From contig CAJIZT010000008.1 of the NCBI GenBank assembly GCA_905182015.1, forward strand, positions 121,801 to 158,185: DNA of 36,385 nucleotides, in the 5' to 3' direction. The position numbers and the translations under genes are program-made. How positions within the stretch are numbered: position 1 is the first letter of the stretch; every line of letters begins with the position of its first letter. The stretch comes from an alpha proteobacterium MED-G09 (GTDB lineage Bacteria > Pseudomonadota > Alphaproteobacteria > MED-G09). Below the pieces are notes generated by a model, which did not search any database, had not been told where the DNA came from, and saw only the letters and a program-made list of their open reading frames with translations. Positions 3,200 to 36,385 of this stretch are shown piece after piece.

Positions 3200-4543
3200 A
3201 TGAAAAAAATATTTAAATCAGATAAAAAAATCTTATTCCTAATATTAACTATATGCGCTATGAGTTTCTTACTTTCCAAACTTAATGCCGCAGAAACTAT
3301 TTCTCAAGAAAATAAAATTCTTATCGAATCAGTAATTGAGCTTGTTAAGAACGAGTATATTGATGAAATAAATGAAGATGAAATTATTGAATCAGCAATA
3401 AATGGGATGCTTCAATCTCTTGATCCTCACTCAATTTATTTTAGCCCAGAAAAATTTAAAGAATTAAAAAATGATACTAAAGGTGAATTTGGAGGGCTTG
3501 GAATAGAAGTGACTATGGAAAAAGGGTTAATAAAAGTAATTTCTCCTATTGACGGAACTCCGGCACAAAAAAGGGGAGTTTTAGGGGGTGATTTGATCAC
3601 TCACATTAACAAGGAATCTATTTTAGGAAAAAATCTTTCTGAGGTAGTTACCCTTATGAGGGGAAAGCCAAAGACTAATATTGAAATTACAATAGTAAGG
3701 GATGGTATTGAAAATGGTTTTGACCTCTTAATCACAAGAGAGATTATAAAAATTCCAGGTATATTGGTAAGAGTAGAGGGTGATACAAAAGATATAGGTT
3801 ATCTTAGAGTGTCTGCCTTTAATGAAAGAACGGCTAAAAGATTATATAAAGAAATATTGAATTTTGAGATAAACCCATTAAATAAAATAGAAAGCTATAT
3901 CCTAGACTTAAGAAGAAATCCCGGGGGATTGCTAAGCCAGGCAATAGAAGTTTCTAATTTATTTATTGATAAAGGCCAAATTGTTTCAACAAAAAGACCA
4001 CGATTTGACGCAACTATTAGTGAATATAGAGCAAAAAAAGGTGACTTAATATCAGGAAAGCCTTTATTAGTCATGGTGAATGGAGGGTCGGCCTCAGCCT
4101 CAGAAATAGTTGCCGGAGCATTGCAAGATAATAATAGAGCAATTATACTAGGAACCAAGACATTTGGAAAGGGTTCAGTTCAGACCTTGTTTCCGATTAA
4201 AAAGAATAAACTATTTTTTTCTTCAGATGATAAGTTGGGTGCAGTCAAGCTGACAACAGCAGAATACTTCACCCCATCTGGAAAATCTATACAAGCAAGG
4301 GGCATTCGACCGGATATAAGAATAGAGCAAGAAATAGGTAATGATATGGATTTAGATTCCTTCCTTGTTGGGGAGACGCAATTAAACAAGTATATAGAAA
4401 ACAAAGAAAGCCAATCAAAATTGAAATCAGGATCGTCAGCATATATACCAAAAGATAAAAATAAAGATGTACAATTAATTCAGGCAATAGATATTTTATC
4501 AGGTCTTAATAGGGAAATAACTAAAAGAAGAAATCTTAAATAA
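3200..4543 (+). CDS. ctpA: Carboxy-terminal processing protease, S41 family
   Basis: This is a periplasmic or membrane-anchored serine protease that trims C-termini of envelope proteins. The 447-residue protein starts with a basic segment and a hydrophobic stretch (about 11-28) ending in LNAAE, a plausible signal peptide or anchor. A PDZ domain follows (about 97-180, GEFGGLGIEV onward). The S41 domain has DLRRNPGGLL, the SASASE box with the likely nucleophile Ser299, and Lys324 in FGKGSVQTL as the base. A Shine-Dalgarno AAGGAAC lies just before the ATG. The stop touches the rppH start. An envC-like amidase activator often encoded upstream in relatives is absent. Confidence 0.94.
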   Translation: MKKIFKSDKKILFLILTICAMSFLLSKLNAAETISQENKILIESVIELVKNEYIDEINEDEIIESAINGMLQSLDPHSIYFSPEKFKELKNDTKGEFGGLGIEVTMEKGLIKVISPIDGTPAQKRGVLGGDLITHINKESILGKNLSEVVTLMRGKPKTNIEITIVRDGIENGFDLLITREIIKIPGILVRVEGDTKDIGYLRVSAFNERTAKRLYKEILNFEINPLNKIESYILDLRRNPGGLLSQAIEVSNLFIDKGQIVSTKRPRFDATISEYRAKKGDLISGKPLLVMVNGGSASASEIVAGALQDNNRAIILGTKTFGKGSVQTLFPIKKNKLFFSSDDKLGAVKLTTAEYFTPSGKSIQARGIRPDIRIEQEIGNDMDLDSFLVGETQLNKYIENKESQSKLKSGSSAYIPKDKNKDVQLIQAIDILSGLNREITKRRNLK

Positions 4544-28708: not shown

Positions 28709-29401
28709 TTATATTTTATCTTTTTTTTTCAAAAGAAGGTCTGGTCGCCTTTTTTTTGTTAAATCCACTGATTTATTTTTACGCCATTCTTCAATAGCCC
28801 TATGATTACCTGATAATAATATTTCCGGTATTTCGGCGTTATTAAATACATTTGGTTTAGTGTATTGCGGATACTCTAGCAGCCCTTCAGTAAAACTTTC
28901 GATAACAGTTGATTCATTATTGCCAATTACATTTGGCAATAATCGAACAACTGAATCTAAGAAAGTTAATGCAGCAACTTCACCCCCGGACAAGATATAA
29001 TCACCTACTGAAATTTCCTTCATATCATATTTTTCAATAATTCTTTGATCAACACCTTCAAAATGACCGCATAATATTGACACGCCCTCATTTAAAGAAA
29101 ATTTTTTCACCACATCCTGAGTTAGTTGTTTTCCTTTTGGAGAAAAATAAATGATTTGATTTTTATCATCGAAACAATCAGTGATTGCCTTGTCCAAAAC
29201 ATCAGCTCTCAATACCATACCAGGGCCGCCCCCTGCTGGTTTTTCATCTACGTTATTGTGATTTCCTAAGCCATATTCTCTAATATTGTGAACCCTTAGA
29301 TTCCATATATCTTCTTTTAATGCTTTGCCTGACAAACTGTGTTGGAGCGATCCAGGAAACATTTCGGGGTATAGCGTCAAAATATTAGCAGTCCAAACCA
29401 T
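28709..29401 (-). CDS. trmD: tRNA (guanine37-N1)-methyltransferase
   Basis: TrmD methylates G37 next to the anticodon and prevents +1 frameshifting. The 230-residue SPOUT enzyme shows GGGPGMVLRADVL, IYFSPKGKQLTQ, LCGHFEGVDQRI, EISVGDYILSGGEVAAL (knot and SAM site) and LLEYPQYTKP. It directly follows the rimM stop without a gap. The conserved rpsP-rimM-trmD-rplS order supports the call. Confidence 0.96.
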   Translation of the reverse strand: MVWTANILTLYPEMFPGSLQHSLSGKALKEDIWNLRVHNIREYGLGNHNNVDEKPAGGGPGMVLRADVLDKAITDCFDDKNQIIYFSPKGKQLTQDVVKKFSLNEGVSILCGHFEGVDQRIIEKYDMKEISVGDYILSGGEVAALTFLDSVVRLLPNVIGNNESTVIESFTEGLLEYPQYTKPNVFNNAEIPEILLSGNHRAIEEWRKNKSVDLTKKRRPDLLLKKKDKI

Positions 29402-30436: not shown

Positions 30437-30550
30437 TTATCTATTCCTTTTTTAATATTTAAAACCAACCAGTATTGCGTCCGTGTACGAAGCCTCGTTG
30501 ACGAACGGCAATCCATTTGGATTGTTTAAGTTTATTACTTAATTAATAAT
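30437..30550 (-). other. Structured 5' leader of rpsP
   Basis: From the proposed transcription start near 30550 to the rpsP ATG there are about 114 bases. They can form a perfect hairpin CAATCC-AAAT-GGATTG (30509-30524), followed by CCGT...ACGG and nested TCGT/ACGA pairings (30481-30508). No open frame covers the structure. It could be an autoregulatory ribosomal-protein leader or an attenuator for the rpsP-rimM-trmD-rplS run; I do not recognise a known leader family. Confidence 0.4.
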
Positions 30551-33438: not shown

Positions 33439-36201
33439 ATGAATTTATACAAATCTTATTTAGAAGAAATTGAAGAAAGAAAAGCGATGGGCTTACATCC
33501 CAAACCTATCGATGATAAAGCGCTTACCGCTGAGATAATTTCTCAGATAAAAGATACTGAGAACGAATATAGACAAGACTCTCTTAACTATTTTATTTAC
33601 AATGTACTGCCGGGTACAACGAGTGCAGCCGTTGTTAAGGCGCAATTTTTGAAGGAGATCATTCTGGAGAAAATTACTCTGGAAGAAATTTCGTCAGCTT
33701 TCGCCCTAGAATTATTATCACACATGAAGGGTGGGCCATCGGTAGAAGTTCTTCTCGATCTCATTTTGGATGCCGAGGATTCAATAGCACAAAAGGCGGG
33801 TGAGATCCTTAAGACTCAAGTATTGTTATACGAGGCTGACACTGAACGATTAAAAAAAGCCTTTACTTCTGGAAATAAGATCGCGAAGAGTATACTCGAA
33901 AGCTATTCGAAGGCTGAATTCTTCACTAAATTGCCGGATGTAGAGAAGGAAATTAAAATTGTTACCTACATAGCCGCTGAGGGAGATATCTCAACAGATT
34001 TACTATCTCCGGGTGGGGAAGCTCATTCGAGGGCCGATAGAGAATTGCATGGTAAGTGTATGATATCGGCAGAGGCACAATATGAAATTCAAAAAATGCA
34101 GAAGCTTCATCCAGATAAAAGAATAATGTTAATAGCAGAGAAGGGGACTATGGGTGTTGGTTCCTCTAGAATGTCAGGAGTAAATAACGTTGCATTATGG
34201 ACAGGAAAACCTGGTAGCCCATATGTGCCTTTTGTTAATGTCGCACCGATAGTTGCAGGTACGAACGGGATCTCTCCGATCTTTCTGACAACAGTGGATG
34301 TTACTGGTGGAATCGGTATCGATTTAAAGAATTGGGTAAAAAAGTTCGATTCTGACGGAAATCCGATTCTAGGCAAGGACGGCAACCCTCTCTTAGAGCA
34401 AGCTTACTCTGTTGATACTGGCACTGTGCTAACGATAAATACAGAGCATAAAAAACTATATGATGAACAGGGAGAAGAGTTAACTGATATTTCCTCATCT
34501 TTTACGCCTCAGAAGCTTGAGTTCATAAAAGCCAGAGGATCCTATGCTATTGTTTTTGGAAAGAAACTTCAGGGCTTCGCATGTAGTACGCTGGGCATCG
34601 AGCTAGAGTCCGTCTTTGCTCCGTCAAAACTAATTTCCCATGAAGGTCAAGGTCTCACCGCTGTTGAAAAGATATTCAATAAAAATGCTGTGGGTATACC
34701 AACTGACGCCGTTTTGCATAGCGGTTCCGATGTTAGGGTTAAGGTTAATATCGTAGGCTCGCAAGATACAACCGGGTTAATGACCACCCAAGAACTTGAG
34801 GCTATGGCAGCCACACTAATTTCTCCGACTATTGATGGCGCCTATCAATCAGGTTGTCATACGGCTTCGGTTTGGGACTCAAGGGCCAAAGCCAATATAC
34901 CTAAACTAATGAAATTTATGAACAGATTTGGGCTTATAACGGCAAGAGATCCAAATGACGTGTATCACCCAATGACTGATGTGATACATAAGGTGCTAAA
35001 TGACCTTACTGTTGATGATTGGTCAATTATTATTGGAGGAGATTCTCATACACGTATGTCAAAAGGTGTTGCCTTTGGCGCAGATTCTGGAACTGTGGCA
35101 TTAGCATTAGCGACAGGAGAGGTAACTATACCCATACCAGAGTCTGTTAAAGTAACCTTTAAGGGTAGTATGAAAAATTATATGGACTTTAGGGATGTGG
35201 TCCATGCGACGCAAGCGCAAATGTTGGAACAATGCAGTGAAAACGTTTTTCAGGGACGAATTATAGAAGTACATATTGGAACTTTGCTTGCCGATCAAGC
35301 TTTCACATTCACTGATTGGACCGCCGAAATGAAGGCTAAGGCATCAATTTGTATTTCACAGGATACTACCCTTATTGAATCTTTGGAAATAGCAAAGTCC
35401 CGAATTCAAAAGATGATCAATAAAGGGATGGATAACGAAGAGAATACTTTGAGGGGCTTAATTGATATAGCGAATAATAGAATCAAACAAATTAACTCTG
35501 GAAATAAGCCGGCATTAGCTCCAGATAAAAATGCGAAATATTATGCTGAGGTTGTAGTCGATCTGGATAAGATAGACGAACCTATGATAGCCGACCCCGA
35601 CGTATACAATACTGATATATCAAAGCGTTACACTCATGACACCATCAGGCCTATTTCATATTATTCTGCAGAGAAAAAGGTAGACCTAGGATTTATTGGA
35701 TCATGTATGGTGCACAAGGGTGATATGAAAATACTAGCTCGGATTCTGAAAAATATAGAGACTAAGCATGGAGCTGTAAATTTCAAAGCTCCACTTGTAG
35801 TTGCACCGCCAACTTATAATATTGTCGATGAGCTAAAAGAGGAAGGCGACTGGGATATTCTAAAAAAATATGCTGGTTTTGAATTCGATGATGACATTCC
35901 CAAGAGTTCAGCTCGAGTTGAGTACGAGAATATTTTGTACCTTGAGAGGCCAGGTTGTAACCTCTGCATGGGGAATCAAGAAAAGGCTAGTAAAGGAGAT
36001 ACCGTAATGGCAACTTCTACTCGCCTTTTTCAAGGAAGAGTAGTTGCAGATGCAGAAGACAAAAAAGGTGAATCACTTTTGGCGTCAACTCCGGTTGTGG
36101 TTCTTTCGACTATTCTTGGAAGAACTCCATCGATAGAAGAATATAAAGATGCTGTTGAGGGGATTGACCTCACTAGGTTTGTGCCACCACCAAGAATCTA
36201 A
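33439..36201 (+). CDS. acnB: Aconitate hydratase B / 2-methylisocitrate dehydratase
   Basis: AcnB isomerises citrate to isocitrate in the TCA cycle, and many members also act on 2-methylisocitrate. The 920 residues carry the AcnB-type N-terminal helical repeat domain (about 1-160), then the swivel domain (GDISTDLLSPGGEAHSRADR), and the catalytic domain with [4Fe-4S] ligands Cys756 (IGSCMVHKGD), Cys840 and Cys843 (RPGCNLCMGN). E. coli AcnB has 865 residues; the extra length includes a DGNPILGKDGNPLL insertion. From memory the sequence resembles Bacteroidota AcnB more than proteobacterial forms. It stands alone, divergent from ccmG. Confidence 0.96.
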   Translation: MNLYKSYLEEIEERKAMGLHPKPIDDKALTAEIISQIKDTENEYRQDSLNYFIYNVLPGTTSAAVVKAQFLKEIILEKITLEEISSAFALELLSHMKGGPSVEVLLDLILDAEDSIAQKAGEILKTQVLLYEADTERLKKAFTSGNKIAKSILESYSKAEFFTKLPDVEKEIKIVTYIAAEGDISTDLLSPGGEAHSRADRELHGKCMISAEAQYEIQKMQKLHPDKRIMLIAEKGTMGVGSSRMSGVNNVALWTGKPGSPYVPFVNVAPIVAGTNGISPIFLTTVDVTGGIGIDLKNWVKKFDSDGNPILGKDGNPLLEQAYSVDTGTVLTINTEHKKLYDEQGEELTDISSSFTPQKLEFIKARGSYAIVFGKKLQGFACSTLGIELESVFAPSKLISHEGQGLTAVEKIFNKNAVGIPTDAVLHSGSDVRVKVNIVGSQDTTGLMTTQELEAMAATLISPTIDGAYQSGCHTASVWDSRAKANIPKLMKFMNRFGLITARDPNDVYHPMTDVIHKVLNDLTVDDWSIIIGGDSHTRMSKGVAFGADSGTVALALATGEVTIPIPESVKVTFKGSMKNYMDFRDVVHATQAQMLEQCSENVFQGRIIEVHIGTLLADQAFTFTDWTAEMKAKASICISQDTTLIESLEIAKSRIQKMINKGMDNEENTLRGLIDIANNRIKQINSGNKPALAPDKNAKYYAEVVVDLDKIDEPMIADPDVYNTDISKRYTHDTIRPISYYSAEKKVDLGFIGSCMVHKGDMKILARILKNIETKHGAVNFKAPLVVAPPTYNIVDELKEEGDWDILKKYAGFEFDDDIPKSSARVEYENILYLERPGCNLCMGNQEKASKGDTVMATSTRLFQGRVVADAEDKKGESLLASTPVVVLSTILGRTPSIEEYKDAVEGIDLTRFVPPPRI

Positions 36202-36234: not shown

Positions 36235-36284
36235 ATTTCATAAAAAAAACGACTCCAGAAGGGTGAGGAGTCGCTTTATGAAAT
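36235..36284 (-). terminator. Strong terminator hairpin ending in eight U on the minus strand
   Basis: CGACTCC (36250-36256) and GGAGTCG (36267-36273) form a perfect 7-base-pair stem with a 10-base loop; on the minus strand it is followed at once by eight T (36249-36242). An outer stem ATTTCATAAA/TTTATGAAAT (36235-36244, 36275-36284) can extend it. On the plus strand the same structure could also help end acnB, but lacks a U run. The minus direction is clearly the better terminator. Confidence 0.75.
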
Positions 36285-36339
36285 CATATTTGATTTCTTA
36301 ACAAGTTGTATAAAGAGGGATATGGGAAATACAACTTGA
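36242..36339 (-). ncRNA. Candidate small RNA with pyrimidine-rich loops
   Basis: Read on the minus strand, this 98-base stretch would form three stem-loops: CAAGTTGTA/TACAACTTG (36330-36338 with 36302-36310, 9 base pairs, 19-base loop), GAAATCA/TGATTTC (36280-36297, 7 base pairs), and the GC-rich terminator stem (36250-36273) followed by eight U. The outer loops read TTTCCCATATCCCTCTTTA and TCACCCTTCT, both rich in C and U with anti-Shine-Dalgarno character. A promoter sits 7 bases upstream. No open frame fits. The alternative is a cluster of terminators serving acnB and an unseen minus-strand gene. Confidence 0.55.
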
Positions 36340-36345
36340 ATAATT

Positions 36346-36373
36346 TTTATATATTGACAAATTGTTGAGGCAA
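36346..36373 (-). promoter_or_regulatory. Promoter of the candidate small RNA
   Basis: On the minus strand TTGCCT (36368-36373) is followed after 16 bases by TATAAA (36346-36351). The predicted start, about seven bases later, falls at 36338-36340, just where the first stem begins. A small inverted repeat TGTTG-AGG-CAACA (36363-36375) overlaps the -35 box and could be an operator. Confidence 0.45.
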
Positions 36374-36385
36374 CATGATGTTAGA

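Follow-up and report, generated by a model that had tools for sequence, protein, structure and literature searches.

The alphaproteobacterial small RNAs (sRNAs) referred to as alpha-r14, NfeR1, or cuckoo RNAs (CcsR1-4) act in trans, fold into three hairpins, and expose unpaired C-rich anti-Shine-Dalgarno motifs on stems of divergent sequence; the defining feature of the family is a CCUCCUCCC motif in every hairpin, within its unpaired region (PMC10746234). At the CIN1 loci, cuckoo RNAs are often linked to a short DUF1127 gene (PMC10253847). Members of the alpha-r8 family (suhB, RF00519; MmgR, SisA-D) are short alphaproteobacterial sRNAs that have a terminator; their anti-Shine-Dalgarno stretch of pyrimidines, UUUCCUCCCU, is single stranded and located between a weak hairpin and the terminator; the same work describes CrfA-SisA, a pair of an sRNA with a partner RNA (PMC12559287). 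Known sRNAs with loops of this kind in alphaproteobacteria are, or are assumed to be, anti-Shine-Dalgarno repressors (PMC10746234, PMC12559287).

The window analyzed here is a 36,385-nt stretch of DNA from an alphaproteobacterium of the MED-G09 lineage. Near its end, on the minus strand, it carries a unit (positions 36338-36242) that, judging from its sequence and that of its relatives, is very probably a genuine sRNA gene. To our knowledge, streamlined alphaproteobacteria of the ocean have yielded few regulatory RNAs so far. The joint reading favored here, and considered fairly probable, is that of a stand-alone, previously undescribed sRNA that is specific to the OCS116/PS1 clade and most likely works in trans as an anti-Shine-Dalgarno regulator.

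The new sRNA resembles the alpha-r14/cuckoo RNAs in having three hairpins in all homologues, C-rich loops, and divergent stems; all three loops are C-rich in two genera and two of the three in the genus of the window. In contrast to that family, none of the 12 homologues has the CCUCCUCCC motif, their loops containing CCCUC, CCCUUCU, and CCUCC instead, and, unlike at the CIN1 loci with their DUF1127 genes, the neighbor of the sRNA is a DUF2794 gene. The likeness to cuckoo RNAs suggested in the initial annotation thus extends to the architecture and not to membership in the family. With alpha-r8, the sRNA shares its short length, a terminator, and pyrimidine-rich anti-Shine-Dalgarno-like motifs. 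These motifs are, however, located within hairpin loops, and the 10-mer UUUCCUCCCU is found in no homologue. RF00519 had no match at the sRNA locus in any family genome searched, and elsewhere in these genomes only subthreshold matches were seen. The defining features of alpha-r14/cuckoo and alpha-r8 were looked for and found lacking; the sRNA represents a new lineage-specific family outside both, probably with a similar way of working.

Structure of the sRNA Gene

The unit and its immediate surroundings comprise the following features.

36368..36373, minus strand: -35-like box TTGCCT of the predicted sRNA promoter, seen in the sequence; relatives have TTGCCA, TCGCCA, or TTGTCA at roughly the corresponding position ahead of the sRNA
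36346..36351, minus strand: -10-like box TATAAA, 16 bases after the -35 box and 7 bases before the RNA start
36339..36385, minus strand: conserved upstream block, the promoter region, common to the divergent DUF2794 gene and running on into contig C7
36242..36338, minus strand: predicted sRNA gene, ~97 nt, with three hairpins and its own terminator (fold z-score, covariation, covariance model matches, and identity)
36302..36338, minus strand: hairpin 1, a 10-bp stem CAAGTTGTAT/ATACAACTTG with the 17-nt loop TTCCCATATCCCTCTTT that includes the conserved CCCUC
36280..36297, minus strand: hairpin 2, a 7-bp stem GAAATCA/TGATTTC with an AATA loop
36247..36276, minus strand: hairpin 3, the Rho-independent terminator, a 10-bp stem AAGCGACTCC/GGAGTCGTTT with the 10-nt loop TCACCCTTCT
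36242..36246, minus strand: 3' end of the terminator U tract, seen in the sequence
33439..36201, plus strand: acnB (aconitate hydratase B; Pfam assignment), converging with the sRNA

The initial annotation had described a minus-strand unit consisting of a promoter, two stem-loops, and a terminator hairpin with a U run, and exactly such a unit is present at positions 36373-36242. Its 7-bp second stem stands as described; the first stem, given as 9 bp, has 10 bp and a 17-nt loop, and the size of ~98 bases was close to the ~97 nt found here. The 104-nt stretch with the sRNA has a folding energy of -30.7 kcal/mol, compared to a mean of -9.05 for dinucleotide shuffles (z = -9.0), and none of 200 shuffles folded as well. 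The loops have unpaired probabilities near 0.9 or more. Small open reading frames (ORFs) within the sRNA, on either strand, are not conserved.

Generic signal searches did not list all parts of the unit. A promoter scan left the sRNA promoter out; as 0.9 promoter-like sites are expected in the region by chance, the TTGCCT-16-TATAAA match is by itself no better than chance. In the relatives, conservation of the -10 box is poor, with TAAGTA, TAAGAT, and TGAGAC in its place. A terminator scan missed hairpin 3, because its 10-nt loop exceeds the limit of the scan.

The window ends with contig C8, and contig C7 opens with the same 50 bases (36336-36385 of the window, G000:C7:1-50), so the two contigs almost certainly join at this overlap. 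Beyond the join, the next gene is on the plus strand and encodes a 120-aa DUF2794 protein (PF10984, 94 bits). The possibility that the terminator belongs to an adjacent minus-strand coding gene beyond position 36385, named in the initial annotation, is excluded, because the DUF2794 gene points away from the sRNA. Flanked by the convergent acnB and the divergent DUF2794, the sRNA stands by itself and has the parts of a stand-alone, Rho-independently terminated sRNA gene: a predicted promoter of its own, a conserved structured body, its own terminator, and no coding gene.

Homologues and Gene Neighborhood

The current analysis revealed 11 further distinct homologues in three genera of OCS116/PS1-clade alphaproteobacteria (12 sequences with that of the window), all of them located between an aconitase gene and DUF2794. 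In DNA searches, homologues in the genus of the window matched over their full length and those in other genera of the family at the terminator hairpin. Protein searches with DUF2794 led to named records from the OCS116 cluster, the PS1 clade, and marine genomes labeled "Rhodobiaceae," in each of which the sRNA is directly upstream of DUF2794 and in the opposite direction. Full-strength matches to the sRNA model and DUF2794 co-occur in exactly the same 11 of 18 sampled family genomes; those without either are mostly incomplete, but one that is 96% complete lacks both.

DUF2794 is the neighbor of the sRNA in all 11 cases. The aconitase on the other side is AcnB, except in locus L038 (one genus), where an AcnA-type enzyme is encoded. 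DUF2794 has acnA at a distance of ~1 to 2 kb in many other Rhizobiales, so the type of aconitase at this locus appears to vary while the sRNA and DUF2794 stay. Compared with the set L033-L040, L038 shows an apparent in-place exchange of acnB for the acnA-type gene, with the sRNA kept. The same sRNA and DUF2794 locus is also present in L041 (PBXX01000020.1), titled Gammaproteobacteria MAG RS466; given an OCS116-type locus under this title, L041 is probably a mis-binned OCS116 contig.

These arrangements bear on the earlier proposal that the sRNA acts as a cis-antisense regulator of the acnB 3' end. The two genes do converge and are just 40 nt apart in the window. However, this gap separates the 3' end of the sRNA from the acnB stop codon, so that the aconitase coding region is not overlapped; the neighbor in L038 is an acnA-type gene and not acnB; and the loops pair no more than ordinarily with the final 300 nt of acnB, which 19 to 26% of other genes match or beat. 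Cis-antisense control of acnB is accordingly the least probable of the alternatives considered here.

Conservation and Covariation

The compensatory base changes that were to be expected in relatives of a structured RNA were found in all three hairpins. Within the genus group, hairpin 1 has three fully compensatory pairs (GUA/UAC to ACC/GGU) and hairpin 3 has two (A-U to G-C and C-G to U-A); other genera show additional compensatory changes in hairpins 2 and 3. The share of paired cells is 94.9%, compared with 33 to 46% when the partners are slid by 1 to 3 bases. The C-rich loops stay across all 12 sequences while the stems change by compensatory pairs: the hairpin 1 core CAAGU/ACUUG and its CCCUC loop motif are kept in every sequence, and the CCCUUCU loop of hairpin 3 is nearly invariant (CCCUUUU and CCCUCUU occur once each). 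The hairpin 2 loop is CCUCC or CCCC in two genera and A/U-rich in the genus of the window.

Could the functional RNA be on the plus strand, as a leader of DUF2794 or an element of the acnB 3' untranslated region? The complement does have GA-rich loops (AGAGGGAUAUGGG and AGAAGGG), e.g., potential CsrA-type GGA sites, and lies upstream of DUF2794. However, in every homologue the plus strand has the weaker fold z-score, it is in the minus-strand sense that the U tract comes after the hairpin, and the small plus-strand ORFs are unconserved. Hand-set stems in the 12 sequences contain 289 Watson-Crick pairs, 15 G-U pairs, and no A-C pairs, a count that is biased because the stems were picked to pair, although the 15 G-U pairs would still become A-C mismatches on the plus strand. 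A plus-strand function is therefore highly improbable.

Sequence identity is distributed unevenly along the locus. In the genus group, the sRNA is 83% identical, whereas the 3' spacer between it and the aconitase gene reaches ~45% (44.6, compared with a shuffled baseline of 42.0). The 75 bp upstream have mean identities of 85.7% within the genus group and 67.2% to other genera, compared with shuffled baselines of 56.1 and 50.7, respectively. This pattern can be weighed against the view that the terminator alone is functional, as a (possibly bidirectional) aconitase terminator, and that the remainder belongs to a divergent promoter. In several relatives, the hairpin is symmetrical and flanked on either side by A and T tracts, and it comes directly after the aconitase stop codon, as such a role would have it. 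Yet the whole sRNA is conserved while the sequence between it and the aconitase gene is random, hairpin 1 carries compensatory changes of its own, and the terminator loop is conserved even though termination does not need it, which makes this view quite improbable.

Between the sRNA and DUF2794, a block, CATAATTnnAACATnATnTTG(C/T)CA, is conserved (36339-36385, continuing into L002:1-106). Divergent promoters that overlap, or a site for a regulator, may be located in it.

Boundaries of the Family

Two covariance models were built from disjoint sequences, R1 from the group of the window and R2 from the other two genera. Each recognized the sequences of the other: R1 matched the other genera with E values of ~5e-5 to 5e-4, and R2 matched the window sRNA at 3e-6. 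Matches to the sRNA were obtained in 11 family genomes. Class-wide scans sampled 289 and 385 genomes. Beyond the family, they yielded no R1 match at an E value of 0.01 and a few weak R2 matches in four genomes. On inspection, the latter proved to be unrelated terminators or G/C-rich repeats, and three of the four genomes lacked DUF2794. In 71 other alphaproteobacterial loci with DUF2794, no homologue was found beside this gene with R1, nor with R2 in most of the same loci. No paralogues were detected in 398 kb of the genome of the window, and no copies in a phage collection. The covariance search thus showed matches in both directions within the family and nothing convincing elsewhere in the class.

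The sRNA also appears to be undescribed, as the initial annotation had it. No Rfam 15 family matched it at the gathering score (whole window) or when the locus and six homologues were scanned permissively. The entries that surfaced at E values of 0.7 to 9, among them SpF39, Phe_leader, and PyrR, scored 11 to 19 bits, compared with gathering scores of 36 to 90; they have only a terminator-like hairpin in common with the sRNA and were regarded as chance matches. Literature searches for DUF2794 with an sRNA, or for OCS116 with a small RNA, returned nothing relevant. Along with the missing Rfam match, the compensatory changes, the conservation of loops and promoter, and the strand asymmetry bear out the proposal of a complete stand-alone sRNA gene with C-rich loops. 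With its defined locus, model, and boundaries, this sRNA can be searched for in existing marine metatranscriptomes.

Predicted Mode of Action

The sRNA is predicted to be transcribed from its own promoter, divergently from DUF2794, and a Rho-independent terminator of its own would stop transcription shortly before the 3' end of the aconitase gene is reached. The unpaired loops (CCCUC in hairpin 1, CCCUUCU in the terminator, and, in two genera, CCUCC or CCCC in hairpin 2) could pair with purine-rich ribosome-binding sites of mRNAs. Several mRNAs would be targeted in trans, probably with the help of Hfq, and their translation blocked. Such repression of several mRNAs is favored because the loops are accessible, Hfq is encoded in the genome, the regions upstream of start codons are purine-rich (AGGAA, GGAGA, GAGGA, and AGAGG are enriched), and known sRNAs carry loops of this kind. 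Anti-Shine-Dalgarno action in trans, as suggested by the loops and by the known sRNAs, is considered probable.

Target prediction covered 361 genes and their orthologues (~400 kb of the genome, start codons being assigned crudely). The hairpin 1 loop reached energies below -9 kcal/mol in 15.6% of the start regions versus 7.0% of the control regions, a preference that composition-matched shuffled loops equal on average. A comparison of three genomes yielded 30 conserved target candidates, compared with a null of 23.9 (maximum, 33), i.e., no convincing conserved regulon; the sole candidate above 30 shuffles was the single best one, and it was carried by one genome. TonB receptors were near the top of the target list and were not enriched (P = 0.13). 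Pairing of the sRNA to the acnB start, the DUF2794 start, and the acnB 3' end was weak or ordinary.

Since the predictions for start regions are not specific, they are also compatible with a real structured sRNA whose C-rich loops serve a protein partner (CsrA-like, ProQ, or Hfq), a sponge function, or a contact with another sRNA. The repetition of CCCUC/CCCUU motifs in successive hairpins would likewise suit an array of protein-binding sites or pairing with the G/A-rich loops of a partner RNA, as in CrfA-SisA (PMC12559287). However, C-rich loops are the known anti-Shine-Dalgarno signature in this class, in both alpha-r14 and alpha-r8, and such roles appear unlikely, if less so than the alternatives discussed above.

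If the anti-Shine-Dalgarno reading is correct, it can be tentatively proposed that a multihairpin regulator of this type arose independently of cuckoo/alpha-r14 and alpha-r8 in streamlined marine alphaproteobacteria, with DUF2794 as its locus-bound partner and with loops swapped or dropped between genera; it might replace the alpha-r8 sRNA, which was not found above the cutoff in these genomes. The sRNA would then add a case of apparently convergent C-rich-loop architecture, and the conservation of its exposed anti-Shine-Dalgarno-like loops suggests that posttranscriptional regulation outlasts genome reduction.

Other RNA Matches in the Window

Two other Rfam matches were noted in the window. 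The Rickettsia sRNA47 family (Rp_sR47) matched positions 3908-4214 on the minus strand with a score of 61.8, compared with the gathering score of 60. This match is antisense within the gene for an S41 peptidase (CtpA-like; 3200-4543) and probably reflects protein-coding conservation, not an sRNA. The "ffh" sRNA motif was found at positions 30470-30522 on the minus strand (38.5 bits), upstream of a run of minus-strand genes that includes trmD (28709-29401), and is likely a leader element.
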